Source: Mya arenaria (taxonomy: Eukaryota; Mollusca; Bivalvia; Myida; Myidae). From it: a stretch of 64,000 bases of DNA. Each line of letters opens with the position of its first letter. Within the stretch, counting starts at the first letter, position 1. The stretch is from NCBI RefSeq assembly GCF_026914265.1, contig NC_069135.1:35535756-35599755 (forward strand). The letters run 5' to 3'. A model generated the notes under the pieces. The model made no database searches. It was given only the letters and a program-made list of their open reading frames with translations, and was not told the DNA's origin. This document shows positions 58,324-64,000 of this stretch, one piece after another. The position numbers and the translations under genes were made by a program.

Positions 58324-61300
58324 ATGAAGCTATTTGCATACCCACTGGCGTGCCTGCTTCTTTTTGGAGCCGGTGCATTTGGAAGACAGGATGCAATCAA
58401 TGCAGATTTGGTTATTTCTGACGTTGAAAGGAAAATTGATATTTCTACCCATCTTGTCAAAATCACTAATGAAATCACCTTTGAAAACACTGGCAAGTCA
58501 TCGACAGGATATTTCCTTGTGCCAATAGACTCATCTTTGCAGAATTACCTTTCTTTCTTTGGGGCTTCTGTAAGTATTCGTTGTTGTTTTTTTCTAAATT
58601 GTTGACAGTTCAGTTATATAGTGTCAGCCGTATAGGGCACTTCCAACAGCCTTGTTGAGCTAGCTTTTATGGCAATGCGTTTGTGGTGTCGGCTGCTGGT
58701 CGAACTGTATGGGGTTCAAACCAATGTTCAGGCATACACTCTTCCACAATAATCATGTCAGAAGTGGGATTCAATGTCACGCTTGGACAATCCTATTTAC
58801 AATTTACAGCTATTTATGGCCCTCAGTTTTACTGCCTAATTGCAATAAATTTAAAAAATAAGAAATGCCACATTAATGTGCAAGATGCGATTAATCGGCA
58901 AGCAACAAATAGCTGTGTTTCTTCAAAAACTTGCACACACGGGCAATGGTTGAAATAAAACTAGCCCGCAAGGTTTTACATAGTAGAGCTTATATAGTAG
59001 AGCTTGTATAAATTTGATGCCAAGCAATAGTATAAGAATTCGAGTTCATCTTAATGTCTTAATTTTGAAGACTGCACAGGTTAATTTCTCGAATGCTGAA
59101 GCAACCTTGAAAACAGATTTATTCAATAACTTAACTTTTGCATTTATTGCAGCTAAAAGGAAGTGGGGATGAAAAGGGAGCTGCTCTTACTGTATCACAA
59201 ACTACTGTTTCCGGGCAAAGGTAAGGAGGTTTTTTAGTCTTATCAGTAATTAAGCATTGACATTCTCACTTAAAATGAATTGGGGCTTTGTCAAAAAGAA
59301 TTGAGTTCTGCTTTCAAAACATGGACTTTTAAGAAAATAATTACCAAAGAAATGGCAATCAATAGAAAACTAATTTTGTATCACACAAACATTTTTATCA
59401 CAAAACATGTTGTTTTTTAAAGTGAGAAACAGTTGTGGAGAGTGGCCCTTCCTTCTGCTCTGGAGACTGGCAAGACGATTATTGTTGTAGTAGAATCAGT
59501 CTTCTCCCACGCCCTGACGCCATTCCCCCGCCAGATCACACAGTCAGAAAAACAGTATGTTGTCTTCAATGGGAACCTGTTTGTGTTCTCCCCATACAAA
59601 GTAAAAACCCAGAAGACAACTGTGAACACAGCCAGCAGCACAATAGAGTCATACACAAAGACCAAACCAGTGTCCCAGTCAGAAAACACTATCACATACG
59701 GACCTTTTGAGAACAAAGAGGCTTTCTCAGAGGTGAGAACTTTGCTTTTAAATTTTATAAACTTAATGAAGAAATAATAGAAAACTCCATCATTATTGAA
59801 TTCATATACAGTATATGAAAATTTCTTCATACTTAACCTGCAGGCTGAGCTTAGAGTGCACTCTGAAAACAATACTCCATTCCTGACCATCACAAGTATG
59901 GAGCGTGTGATCGAGGTGTCACACTGGGGAAACATCGCAATTGAGGAGCACATTGAGGTCCGACACAGTGGTGCTGAACTGAAGGGATCTTTCTCAAGAT
60001 ACGACTACCAGAGAGCAGCTGACCAGGGGGCATCTGTTAAGGCATTCAAGGTACTATTCAGACATTTTTTGTTTTTTAAATAAAGGTTTGATTGTGTCAC
60101 TTCAGCTGTTCTATTTAAATATTCATAAAGATCTTTCAAACTCAACTTGTTGCAGAAGAAAAACAAACAGTTTTCTTTCTGAATACCAAACAGTTTTCTG
60201 ACTTATCTGGCCATGTAGAATTCCTTTATTTTGCCTTCCTGTTAGTGGAAGGTAAAGGTCGGTCGATCGATCTCAGGCATAACTATTTTTTCTAAATCTA
60301 TGCTTAGATACGGTACACTCTTTAGGAAGAAATTAAAAACAAAATGGTGGTGGAAAATTATATACATTTTAGATGTAATAAAAATAATATTGATAATTTT
60401 GCTATTATGCTTCTGTGAATTAGGTAATCTTCTAGATAGTGCCCAAGTATAGGTAGTGATAGCTAGAAATAAGATTTAAAAATATTTCCTTGTTTAGACT
60501 GTCCTGCCAGCTGCTGCCAGTGATGTATACTATCGTGACGAGATCGGCAACATCTCGACGAGTGCCCTGCGAGAGATGGATGATCTGGTTGAGGTGGAAC
60601 TCCGACCCCGTTTCCCTCTGTTTGGAGGATGGAAGACCAAGTACACCATTGGATACAATGTACCCAGCTACCAGTACCTCTTCAACTCTGGTTAGTTATT
60701 ATTTTGGTAGCCTTATAGTAATTTGATGGTTTAACATTTATGTCTGGAGTCTTAATGTTTGCATATTTTTTATATGCTGTAAATGAAAAAAGTATTTCAA
60801 ATGAACAATAGGATGAAGTACTGTATCAAGAGGTACCTTTGACTCTTGAGAACATTTGCTTGAAGAAGATCCTTTCATAAGAAAATATATCATTGTTTTT
60901 TTCTTATGCTTTTTCAGGTGACAGCTATGGTTTGAAGATGCGATTTGTTGACCATGTTTTTGATGACTTAGTTATCGACCAGCTGACAATCAAAATCATC
61001 CTGCCAGAAGGATCTTCGTAAGTGCTTTTAATACAGAGTATTCGATGAAATGGAATTTATGGGTATTAATTTTCAAATGCAACACAATAAAATTCTTCTC
61101 TGTAATTGTTACATAAGGTTTCATGCAGAAAAGGTCCTATATATATTTCCATTTGTTTTACCTAAATTTATGCAGAAGTTATTGTTTCGGTCTGCCTTTG
61201 TCTATATTACCTTTATACTCTTGCGCACAGTGGTCATACATTGGCTTAGGGAGATCAATATTTGATACATAGAGAGATGATTTTGCTACCTTCTGTACCC

Positions 61301-64000
61301 TGTGCGTAGGAATGTTTACATGCATCTGACTAGCAGTATGATTAGGACAGTGTCATGAGACAAAATTCAAAAATTAAGGTGGAATAAAAGCAAAATAATA
61401 CTGGTACTTTTAACACAGAGTACAGCCCCTTTCTCCATTCACATATTAATATCATATTAATATCATATTAATATGTGAATGGAGAAAGGGGCTGTACTCT
61501 GTGTTAAAGTACCAGTATTATTTTGCTTTTATTCCACCTTAATTTTGATATTCTGTGAATACTAGGCTTTTAACTAATTGGGAATTTAATCTTTACATTT
61601 GGGGAAAAGATATTAACTTTTCCCCAAATGTAAAGATTAAATTCCCAATTAGTTAAAAATAATATTTCATTGGACACTTAGACCTTTTTAGGTTAAATCA
61701 TATTTTATTATAGAAAGAAACATACAAAGTATGTAAGGTTATACTTATAAAATCAAAATAGAGGCTGTTACTGGAAGATGAGAAACAACTTATAAAAGCC
61801 CTTTTCCACTTTCCCTTATTCTCATTTCAGTGACGGAATGAAATCTGAATTAGAAATATTTTAAATATTCTGTTGAAATGTACAATTTCACTGCAAGATG
61901 TTGATTCTTACAGTGGTATTGAGCTGAAGACCCCGTTCAAGGTGGAGAAGGGGGAGAATGGTCTGCACTACACATACCTGGACACCGTGGGACGACCTGT
62001 CATCGTGGCGTACAAGAACAACCTCGTCGACCAGCACATCCAGGACTTTGAGGTAAGGTTTGCTGCGGTTATTCCCCATCAGATTGGCATCCATGACCTG
62101 CAGACAGTGCTAATTATAATTTCAACATAACCTCGATGGCTTTTAATGATACGATTGAATTTGTGATCATTAATTCTTGCCTTTCTGTATTTGTGTAACC
62201 GCATATAGCGGCTCGCTATAGAGCTAGCTTTTATAGCGACGCGGTAGAGTGTCCGCCTGCGGAGGGAGAGGTCGTGGGTTCGAACCCCGATAGGTGCACA
62301 TGGCAATTTGTGCAGTCTGTTACATTTGGCGCCCAACGAGGGACCTGTGTTATACGATATGCCTCAAGGTCATTGCAAATTGACCTTTGTCTCCTAAATT
62401 CGAGGACAAATTTCAAAATGGAGGGGGAATGTGTAACCTGGTATACGATGTATGTAGCGGCACTTATACTGTCTTGATATAGAGCTAGCTTTTATAGCAA
62501 CGTGGTAGAGTGTCCGCTTGCAGAGGGAGAGGTCGTGGCAATTTGTGCAGTCTGTTACACTTGTTTTGAGAAGCTTTCAGGATTTTCGGTGAATACTAGG
62601 CTTGTTTCAAGTTCATAGCCTTGTTTGCAAGGTCACCATCAGTGTCATGCAAAAATTTGATGTTAACTAGAAAACTTTTTCTGAAATTAAAATTAACTTA
62701 AAATTTGGTTTAGGTTACACAGTACTTGTCAGTAGTTGAAAACATGATGTGTTCTTTTCTTCCAGCTGTACTACAACTTCCAGAAACTGCGCCTTCTGCA
62801 GGAGCCCCTCCTGGTTGTCGGAGCCTTCTACCTGATGTTCGTGCTCGTGATTATCTACGTTAGGATGGACTTCTCCATCACGAAGGTAGTACGATAAAAG
62901 TGTTTGCAATACCAATTATCATTGCTTATTATCAGAATATGATATCTATTACTCATTCATTAGTTGAGCACAGAGTATGAATGTTGATCTGTAACTTATC
63001 TTTCTTTTAATTAAGATACTCAACCAAATCATTATGCCTATGCTTTTGTAGAAGTTCGGATTTTTACAAGTTGTTTATTTTACATTGAAGATTTATCAAA
63101 TGGAAAACTTTGAAAATATAACAACTTGCTATCAGTGTGTGTGGTCAAGTGTTTTTTTTAGTCATAGAACATATTTCTGACACCTATTATTCTCATAAGG
63201 ACGAGGCAAAGGAGAGCAAAATGCGTGTTGCCAGCCTTCTGGAGGAGGTTCAGAGTGCCCAGGACCGCCGCAGTGCCCTCTACCAGAGCTACGATGATGC
63301 CATTGACAAGTTCAAGGCCAGCAAGGACCAGTCGAGCTTTATCGCAGGTCGGAAGAAAATAGACGCGGACTATAAACAGCTGACACAGCAGATACAAGGG
63401 CTACAGTCTTCCCTAAAGCAGGAGGGCTCTGACCTCACGGAAAGGGTACGATGACTCAACCAGTATTTTGAATAGTGAATATATAAAACTAGACTTGTTT
63501 TATAATATTTAGCCAATTTATTCAAAACCTAGCGTAAATGCAGTGGTCAAGCACTAGTATGAGGATTTGGGCTTGTTCCAAAGGTCTTTATTTTGATGAC
63601 TGTAAATGTTTTCAAATGTCAGAAGTCCTTTCTTTGTCATAAATATAAATATTCTGTGTTGTATTTAATTTTAGTTGAGTATTCAATGTGTTTTTTGTCG
63701 AGCAATGATTTTAGATACATTGAAAGTAATAGCGGGGACTTACCTATGATGTCCCCGGGGTGCGGGGGTATTTGGTGGGGATTTTATCAGAGGGATTTGC
63801 TGGATCCAAAATCAAAGGCCCCTCTATTTCCCAGACGGGGTGGGGGTGGGGGGGTTTACAAATTACTGGTGCATAATAAATAACGAAAACATTTTACACA
63901 ATATTTGTAAGATGTGCTTCATAATAATCTGTTTTCCATGCAGGTTGGTGAGCTGAACCGTCAGGACCAGGCATACCGTGATCAGATCAACGCCCTAGGA
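58324..64000 (+). CDS. RPN1: Ribophorin I (oligosaccharyltransferase subunit 1), 3' end outside window
   Basis: Subunit of the ER oligosaccharyltransferase that N-glycosylates nascent proteins; binds ribosome/translocon side and substrates (known). Exons: 58324-58569, 59153-59220, 59423-59732, 59844-60050, 60498-60690, 60918-61017, 61914-62052, 62766-62885, 63200-63445, 63944 to the edge. All junctions are GT-AG with consistent phase; 562 codons are present (human about 607), so about 45 residues are missing. Signal peptide at residues 1-20. The lumenal domain shows [70 protein letters not shown] and [19 protein letters not shown], all close to human. One membrane segment lies at about residues 436-453 ([18 protein letters not shown]). 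A charged, coiled-coil-like cytosolic tail follows. The ATG is the first one followed by a signal peptide. Confidence 0.96.
58621..58760 (+). repeat. Diverged tRNA-like repeat in RPN1 intron 1
   Basis: Contains GAGCTAGCTTTTATGGCAAT then GCG, and a box B-like GGGGTTCAAACC. The first part matches the LTRs at 62192-62559 (GAGCTAGCTTTTATAGC). Probably an old relative of that LTR or of the SINE it resembles. Confidence 0.45.
61370..61549. repeat. Near-perfect palindrome, 82-bp arms, RPN1 intron 6
   Basis: The left arm (61370-61451) runs AAAATTAAGGTGGAATAAAA ... CCATTCACATATTAATAT. The right arm (61468-61549) is its inverse with only a single one-base length difference. The 16-bp centre is itself built of ATATTAAT repeats. 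Confidence 0.95.
61569..61659. repeat. Second palindrome, 42-bp perfect arms, RPN1 intron 6
   Basis: The left arm TTTTAACTAATTGGGAATTT ... ACATTTGGGGAAAAG (61569-61610) is inverted without mismatch to 61659 across a 7-bp loop ATATTAA. It starts 20 bp after the first palindrome. Confidence 0.95.
62192..62559 (+). mobile_element. Miniature LTR retrotransposon relic (TRIM-like), RPN1 intron 7
   Basis: A fossil non-coding element of 368 bp. The 5' LTR is 62192-62324 (TGTGTAACC ... CTGTTACA) and the 3' LTR 62430-62559, with the same ends. Two bases after the first LTR is TGGCGCCCAACGAGGGACC (62327-62345), a primer-binding site of tRNA-Lys type. Directly before the second LTR is the purine tract AAAATGGAGGGGGAA. 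The internal region is only about 105 bp and encodes nothing. Each LTR includes a tRNA-like promoter region (TAGCGACGCGGTAGAGTGTC; the 5' LTR also has GGTTCGAACCCC). The LTRs differ noticeably, so it is not recent. No clear target duplication seen. Confidence 0.75.
63726..63873. mobile_element. Partial PIF/Harbinger-type MITE in RPN1 intron 9
   Basis: The GC-rich interior (TAGCGGGGACTTACC, GGGTGGGGGTGGGGGGG) and right end TTTACAAATTACTGGTGCA-TAA resemble 28647-28943, whose right end is GGTTACAATTGACTGATGCA-TAA. The left terminus is not recognisable. Confidence 0.5.

Follow-up and report, generated by a model that had tools for sequence, protein, structure and literature searches.

The window, by which we mean the whole 64-kb stretch of Mya arenaria DNA analysed here, carries a compact, repeat-bounded element within an intron of the ribophorin I gene, in the same orientation as the gene. 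The upstream ribophorin I exon ends at 62052 (Pfam PF04597, E 1.2e-10), and the downstream exon, near 62766, was delimited by splice sites called by eye and has no Pfam match. In the surrounding 1-kb region, direct-repeat segments (74 nt at 88%, 28 nt at 96% and 16 nt at 81%) flank a short interior, and comparison with genome copies set the boundaries of the element at 62194-62559: two LTRs with TGTAAC...GTTACA termini enclose a tRNA-Lys primer-binding site (PBS), a non-coding interior and a polypurine tract (PPT) (Table 1). The direct repeats, the tRNA-Lys PBS and the genome copies described below bear out the LTR-PBS-interior-PPT-LTR layout without coding capacity that had been proposed in a sequence-only reading of this DNA. 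The extent given there, 368 bp at 62192..62559, contracts to 366 bp, the tttg and cttg at the two edges being the target duplication.

Table 1. Features of the window copy, and of a diverged relative, in window coordinates.
Feature	Position	Strand	Basis or remark
Left target-site duplication, tttg	62190..62193	.	3/4 bases match the right one
5′ LTR, 131 bp	62194..62324	+	lacks 23 nt towards its beginning relative to the usual family length of 154 bp
tRNA-like stretch	62227..62298	+	15.7 bits (E 0.56; cut-off 29) against positions 1-71 of Rfam model RF00005
TTTT directly before box A	62229..62232	+	only T4 in the 5′ LTR and interior of the window copy
Box A-like TAGCGACGCGG	62234..62244	+	sequence; motif as given in section 3.5 of PMC10886601
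Box B-like GGTTCGAACCCC	62277..62288	+	sequence
Internal region, 107 bp	62325..62431	+	genome-copy comparison
Primer-binding site TGGCGCCCAACGAGGGAC	62327..62344	+	18/18 complementary to the 3′ end (including CCA) of intron-containing tRNA-Lys-like genes of the same genome
Internal tail AAATTCGAGGACAAATTTC	62396..62414	+	one base off the 19-mer common to L005 and family B
Polypurine tract GGAGGGGGAA	62420..62429	+	G-rich, before the 3′ LTR
3′ LTR, 128 bp	62432..62559	+	without 26 nt including box B
Right target-site duplication	62560..62563	.	cttg
Diverged relative	58619..58765	+	fragment of a different dispersed repeat that carries the same T4/box A block and a site resembling box B

Across the 64-kb window, ARAGORN called no tRNA and no RNA family passed its own Rfam threshold, and a PBS-like 16-mer matched once (≤2 mismatches) against 0.03 expected. 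In the window copy, box B survives in the 5′ LTR alone, the 3′ LTR having lost it through the 26-nt deletion, so the proposal of box A and box B in both LTRs is right for the 5′ LTR and fails for the 3′ LTR. Because the 3′ LTR is without box B and the 5′ LTR is shortened, the window copy is probably inert. Translated, the internal tail AAATTCGAGGACAAATTTC gives NSRTNF, which we take to resemble the C terminus of Ty3/gypsy Pol.

A search of the genome (1.216 Gb in 18 contigs) with the 366-bp element returned at least 41 matches, a minimum since scoring covered 40 of the 640 first-look candidates. Thirty loci were fetched, among which seven pairs with long flanks alike at 97-99.8% were counted once, giving 23 independent insertions; one of these pairs is formed by the window copy and an inverted duplicate on the same contig, at a distance of 360 kb, with 3.4 kb alike at 98.3%. 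The usual structure across the 30 loci is 154-107-154 bp, with the same TGTAAC...GTTACA ends. Scripted end assignment gave no 3′ LTR end at 8 of the 30 loci, and target duplications were assessed in the 18 of 23 insertions with both outer ends assigned, L027 standing for its pair. An exact 4-bp duplication was present in 12 of these 18 (permuted flanks: mean 0.9, maximum 6 over 20,000 permutations), and three of four bases matched in a further four, the window copy included. The two remaining insertions, which failed this comparison, were L003, which lies in a tandem array, and L010, whose 5′ end was misplaced by the script. Genome-wide, the LTR 3′ end (21-mer, ≤2 mismatches) occurs at 488 places against 4 for the reversed control, and the junction of LTR end and PBS (23-mer, ≤3 mismatches) at 264 against 0. 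For the first 30 exact LTR ends, the LTR start could be located in 15 cases, and 5 of these 15 are solo LTRs with exact 4-bp duplications (L037, L045, L049, L051 and L053). The repeat family is far beyond chance in its own genome, and the paired structure, duplications, junctions and solo LTRs of its copies speak for an LTR element. Other searches of the genome gave 53 tyrosinase-type matches, one of them read as an ORF, and no match to Egg_lysin, for which the control genomes were equally empty, so that this negative carries no information.

The same copies refute the alternative that the locus holds two SINE copies that came to lie about 100 bp apart by chance, to which we assign almost no probability. 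The box A/box B-like sequence is SINE-like, resembling the head of tRNA-derived SINEs (SINE2). By definition, however, SINE2 elements have no LTRs and no PBS or PPT, whereas the window family has paired LTRs, a PBS, a PPT and 4-bp duplications; its copies repeat the LTR-PBS-internal-PPT-LTR order with an interior nearly always 107 bp long, the duplications lie outside the pair, and the LTR/PBS junction recurs at the 264 places counted above. The sequence-only reading had suggested counting full elements, solo LTRs and flanking 4-6 bp duplications, and had taken copies without the paired structure as the sign of two SINEs: all three were found, and a majority of copies without paired LTRs, PBS and PPT was not seen among those fetched.

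The 23 insertions carry two versions of the PBS: 10 have an exact TGGCGCCCAACGAGGGAC and 3 an exact TGGCGCCCAACGTGGGGC, so that 13 of 23 match at 18/18 positions; eight of the other ten are one base off the nearer version, L021 is two off and L029 three off. The first version fits an intron-containing tRNA-Lys type and the second fits tRNA-Lys(CTT), with both gene types present in the same genome and matching tRNA 3′ ends at 83 genome places against 0 for the control. ARAGORN calls tRNA-Lys(CTT) in L068-L070, which are of the second kind; for the first kind it calls only an odd 94-nt tRNA in L071 and L072, which we read as a probable tRNA-Lys(TTT) with an intron after the anticodon.

We then considered the tRNA-like segment of the LTR. 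Infernal aligned the full tRNA model (positions 1-71) to LTR positions 57-128, with scores below the gathering value of 29 bits throughout: 17.1 for L004 (E 0.27), 19.3 for L005 (E 0.068) and 15.7 for the window copy (E 0.56). This match is weak on its own, because an unrelated viral pseudoknot family, PK-BYV, equalled or exceeded the tRNA model by E-value in the L004 and L005 searches (two of three). When five whole loci were searched together with Rfam models, no tRNA match reached E 1 or better, and ARAGORN at default settings called no tRNA in any of the 30 loci of the window family (family A); with relaxed scoring, its many calls were spread all over the loci and so were uninformative. 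Local alignment of the L005 LTR with tRNA genes of the same genome gave a score of 38 with tRNA-Asn (0 of 2000 shuffles as high), 34 with tRNA-Lys(CTT) (1 of 2000) and 27 with the end of the intron-containing Lys type (12 of 2000). Box B of the window family is an exact GGTTC, and box A reads TAGC...CGG, with G where Y is usual (compare TRGCY and YGG, the motifs of the Helenus elements discussed below); within the family, conservation is not clearly higher in the box A and box B columns than elsewhere in the LTR. A TTTT at LTR positions 59-62, directly before box A (position 64), is found in 20 of 23 5′ LTRs and in 20 of 23 3′ LTRs, and is missing from three of each, both identical LTRs of L016 among them. 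Depletion of T4 provides no evidence, because the observed count of 1 is at chance level (shuffle mean 0.72). A tRNA origin for the window family's own LTR is supported, though not decisively.

Two further repeats bear on this segment. The first is the diverged relative upstream in the window, which had been placed at 58621-58760 and is real as a repeat but belongs to another dispersed repeat. Its similarity to loci L080 and L081 is 82-83% across some 150 bp. Both loci align with the LTR at about 74% between positions 42 and 119 (E ~1e-8), whereas direct comparison of the window segment with the LTR gives a match of just 23 bp (87%, E 7e-4). Its best block against the LTR is GAGCTAGCTTTTATGGCAATGCG (score 31; maximum of 1000 shuffles, 23), and a pattern made to fit both this block and its counterpart in the element finds 233 places at ≤1 mismatch, with 0 for the control. 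L082 carries two such segments in direct order, 82% alike, and in L080 the T4, box A and box B are retained and spaced almost as in the element LTR.

The second is another TRIM family of the same genome, family B, found through the same PBS. Its L093 copy combines 142-bp LTRs with a 130-bp interior and is flanked by an exact caat duplication. Family B interiors have the same two PBS versions and the same internal tail as the window family: the PBS and the 19-nt AAATTCGAGGACGAATTTC are common to the L093 and L005 interiors, which, minus their first 20 nt, align with a score of 38 (maximum of 2000 shuffles, 27). The family B LTR aligns to the window-family LTR over the tRNA segment (score 34; maximum of 2000 shuffles, 31), and ARAGORN calls tRNA-Ser(TGA) in the LTRs of four of six family-B-type loci, with none in L090 or L092; judged by these comparisons, family B is better support for a tRNA-like LTR than the model scores of the window family. 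Elements of this type also yield false tRNA gene calls. Match pairs of family B are spaced 271-272 bp apart, which suggests tandem arrays, and the repeat is directly visible in L088 and L091.

On this evidence, we consider it very likely that the window element is a decayed copy of a Helenus-type TRIM, that is, a non-coding miniature LTR retrotransposon with a tRNA-derived box A/box B segment in its LTR, and the proposal of a TRIM with tRNA-type LTRs is to that degree supported. Helenus elements, TRIMs with tRNA-derived LTRs, are described from fungi, six animal phyla and a lycophyte, with 51 families from pteriomorph bivalves alone (Kojima 2024, PMC10886601), and because they were named in 2024 the suggestion of a distinct class does not stand. 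In the portions of that paper compared here, they have 4-bp duplications in animals, tRNA-Lys among their bivalve primers and a proposed Gypsy link; the screen took elements of less than 1 kb in total, with one family reaching 1263 bp, and polymerase III activity is given as not validated. The window family is likewise non-coding, with two direct LTRs (usually 154-107-154 bp), a PBS complementary to a tRNA 3′ end together with a PPT, and a 4-bp target duplication (exact in 12 of 18 insertions, 3/4 bases in the window copy). Its PBS is shared with Ty3/gypsy-like candidates of the same genome, and there are several families per genome, with tandem arrays as in zebrafish LTR-11_DR. In contrast, two tRNA-Lys isoacceptor PBS versions within one family, and a tail common to two families, are not met in those portions of PMC10886601. 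The Helenus placement is made on features. Among open-licence PMC papers, as far as their accessible text goes, the only later report of Helenus-type elements is a mention in a 2026 meeting report (PMC12859917). As we read its sequence, the window family is real, well supported and already explained in kind, new only as a further example of the known Helenus kind, and it offers an independent case in which LTR elements seem to have acquired a tRNA-type promoter.

Cassandra elements of plants, according to PMC10886601 and PMC7215508, resemble the window family and its putative promoter in being TRIMs that carry a polymerase III-type promoter inside the LTR and in forming tandem arrays. The Cassandra LTR, however, carries 5S rRNA sequence, whereas LTR searches of the window family returned no Rfam 5S match up to E 10, and this assignment was rejected. 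The biv-TRIM of Satovic et al. (2019, PMC6934838) is a bivalve miniature LTR element with the same layout, solo repeats and tandem arrays. As described in the compared part of that paper, it has repeats of 202-218 bp, an inner domain of 77-80 bp and no clear PBS, unlike the 154 bp, 107 bp and exact tRNA-Lys PBS found here, and it was rejected on the sizes of repeat and interior and on the PBS.

For a Helenus-type element of this form, transcription would begin in the 5′ LTR, some 10-20 nt ahead of box A (near LTR position 50), probably by RNA polymerase III, and the RNA would end in the 3′ LTR, possibly at the T4. With these two ends, position 50 and the T4, the RNA would carry a terminal repeat (R) of about 12 nt. 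In Cassandra, according to PMC10886601, both RNA ends fall within the 5S portion of the LTRs, and 18 bp are duplicated between them. tRNA-Lys would prime reverse transcription, and a Ty3/gypsy-type element would supply reverse transcriptase and integrase in trans.

In another reading, RNA polymerase II would transcribe a Helenus-like TRIM, using the TATATA at LTR position 20, and the tRNA-like piece would be a passive fossil. The TATATA lies about 30 nt before the presumed RNA start, the tRNA fold is degraded and the boxes are without clear extra conservation inside the family, all of which favours such transcription. However, a TATA-like element at -30 is also compatible with polymerase III, the dispersed repeat represented by L080, about 74% alike, keeps T4, box A and box B with almost unchanged spacing, and a full tRNA-like unit is kept in family B; we regard polymerase II transcription as possible but rather unlikely. 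The LTR pairs within L003 and within L016 are identical, and because such copies exist, the putative polymerase III transcription of the window family is open to direct test.

A more tentative idea, to which we give only a minor chance, is that one internal module (two-version tRNA-Lys PBS, AAATTCGAGGACGAATTTC tail and PPT) is common to at least two TRIM families with differently preserved tRNA-like promoters, and that the window-family TTTT could serve as a polymerase III terminator in the 3′ LTR, giving an R of about 10-15 nt, similar to the 18 nt reported for Cassandra. If the shared-module pattern is true, LTR promoter and interior would evolve separately. The T4 of family B sits after box B, and this position, like the window-family LTRs without TTTT, both of L016 included, speaks against the generality of a TTTT terminator; the chance-level T4 count likewise speaks against an RNA end at the T4.

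Candidate Ty3/gypsy-like elements share the PBS, which lies 2.6-5.3 kb from Ty3/gypsy-like reverse transcriptase (RT) matches on the same strand at several places, for example C7:52623906 and C8:35274692. The RT reference fragment matches Ty3 RT (PDB 4ol8, E 5e-9), and the RT matches near the PBS are 44-49% identical to the fragment at the places compared. Directly before the PBS stand ...GGTAACA plus two bases at one gypsy-like place and ...GTTACA plus five bases at another, which we assume to be LTR ends. The TRIM could be an internally deleted derivative of one coding gypsy element with the same LTR; its PBS type is that of the genome's Ty3/gypsy-like elements, and in L083 a remnant of Ty3-like RT precedes a related LTR-like repeat. 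However, a genome pattern search for the same LTR/PBS end found no other elements, the internal-tail pattern returned mostly the TRIM itself, and the PBS pattern gave family B and the gypsy-like candidates and no coding element with this LTR. Moreover, the near gypsy relative of the L083 RT carries long LTRs (at least 1.3 kb) that, in the fetched pieces, do not match the element LTR, and we consider derivation by internal deletion very unlikely. L065/L066, taken up as a further TRIM, were dropped, as their two ends do not match each other.

One further insertion, L061, consists of an LTR, the 18 nt of the PBS and an inverted copy of the first 30 nt of the LTR, with agtg at both sides as an exact 4-bp duplication. 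Such an arrangement, met here as a single event, would be expected from the integration of a strong-stop cDNA that had folded back on itself.

The element, a Helenus-type TRIM in an RPN1 intron, has a counterpart in the same genome: a second TRIM family (family B; loci L088, L089, L091 and L093), whose copies lie in tandem at a spacing of ~272 bp and whose LTRs are callable as tRNA-Ser(TGA). Family B shares its PBS versions and its internal tail with the element's family; in L093 the LTR measures 142 bp and the interior 130 bp. Three further candidate loci, L065, L066 and L079, carry tRNA-like sequence that ends in ...TGTGACA and is followed by a TTGGCGCC-type PBS; they resemble family B. The Rfam tRNA model scored 27.2 bits in L065 and had no match in L079.

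At locus L061, an insertion with an exact 4-bp duplication on both sides consists of one LTR and 18 nt of PBS, joined to the first 30 nt of the LTR in inverted orientation, a layout that looks like an integrated strong-stop product.

The 3′ part of RPN1, together with the element, recurs inverted 360 kb away (98.3%), and common flanks were found in six further element pairs, each confined to one contig. Together these pairs point to segmental duplication or uncollapsed haplotypes.

Positions of repeats, duplicated segments and arrays
Feature	Location
LTR relative, diverged	window 58619-58765
Repeat at window 58657, second copy	C14:35241408
RPN1 3′ part with element	window ~60694-64000
Inverted recurrence	G000:C14:35236038-35239403
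Inverted repeat 1	window 61392-61524
Inverted repeat 2	window 61567-61659
Insertion	L061:173-374
tRNA-Lys-like array	G000:C6:74371537 onward

Locus L083 holds, in this order, a Ty3-like RT remnant, a tandem duplication, a purine-rich tract and an LTR-like repeat that is kin to the diverged LTR relative in the window; the LTRs of the nearest full gypsy relative examined are different. The window also holds two long, near-perfect inverted repeats, perhaps miniature inverted-repeat transposons, which correspond to the sub-threshold miRNA hairpins in locus L001.

Elsewhere in the genome, loci L068-L070 hold arrays of tRNA-Lys(CTT)/tRNA-Asn genes (unit ~1.25 kb), and contig C6 holds arrays of intron-containing tRNA-Lys-like genes (unit ~705 bp). 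Tyrosinase-type matches are abundant on contig C8, with 35 of the genome's 53.
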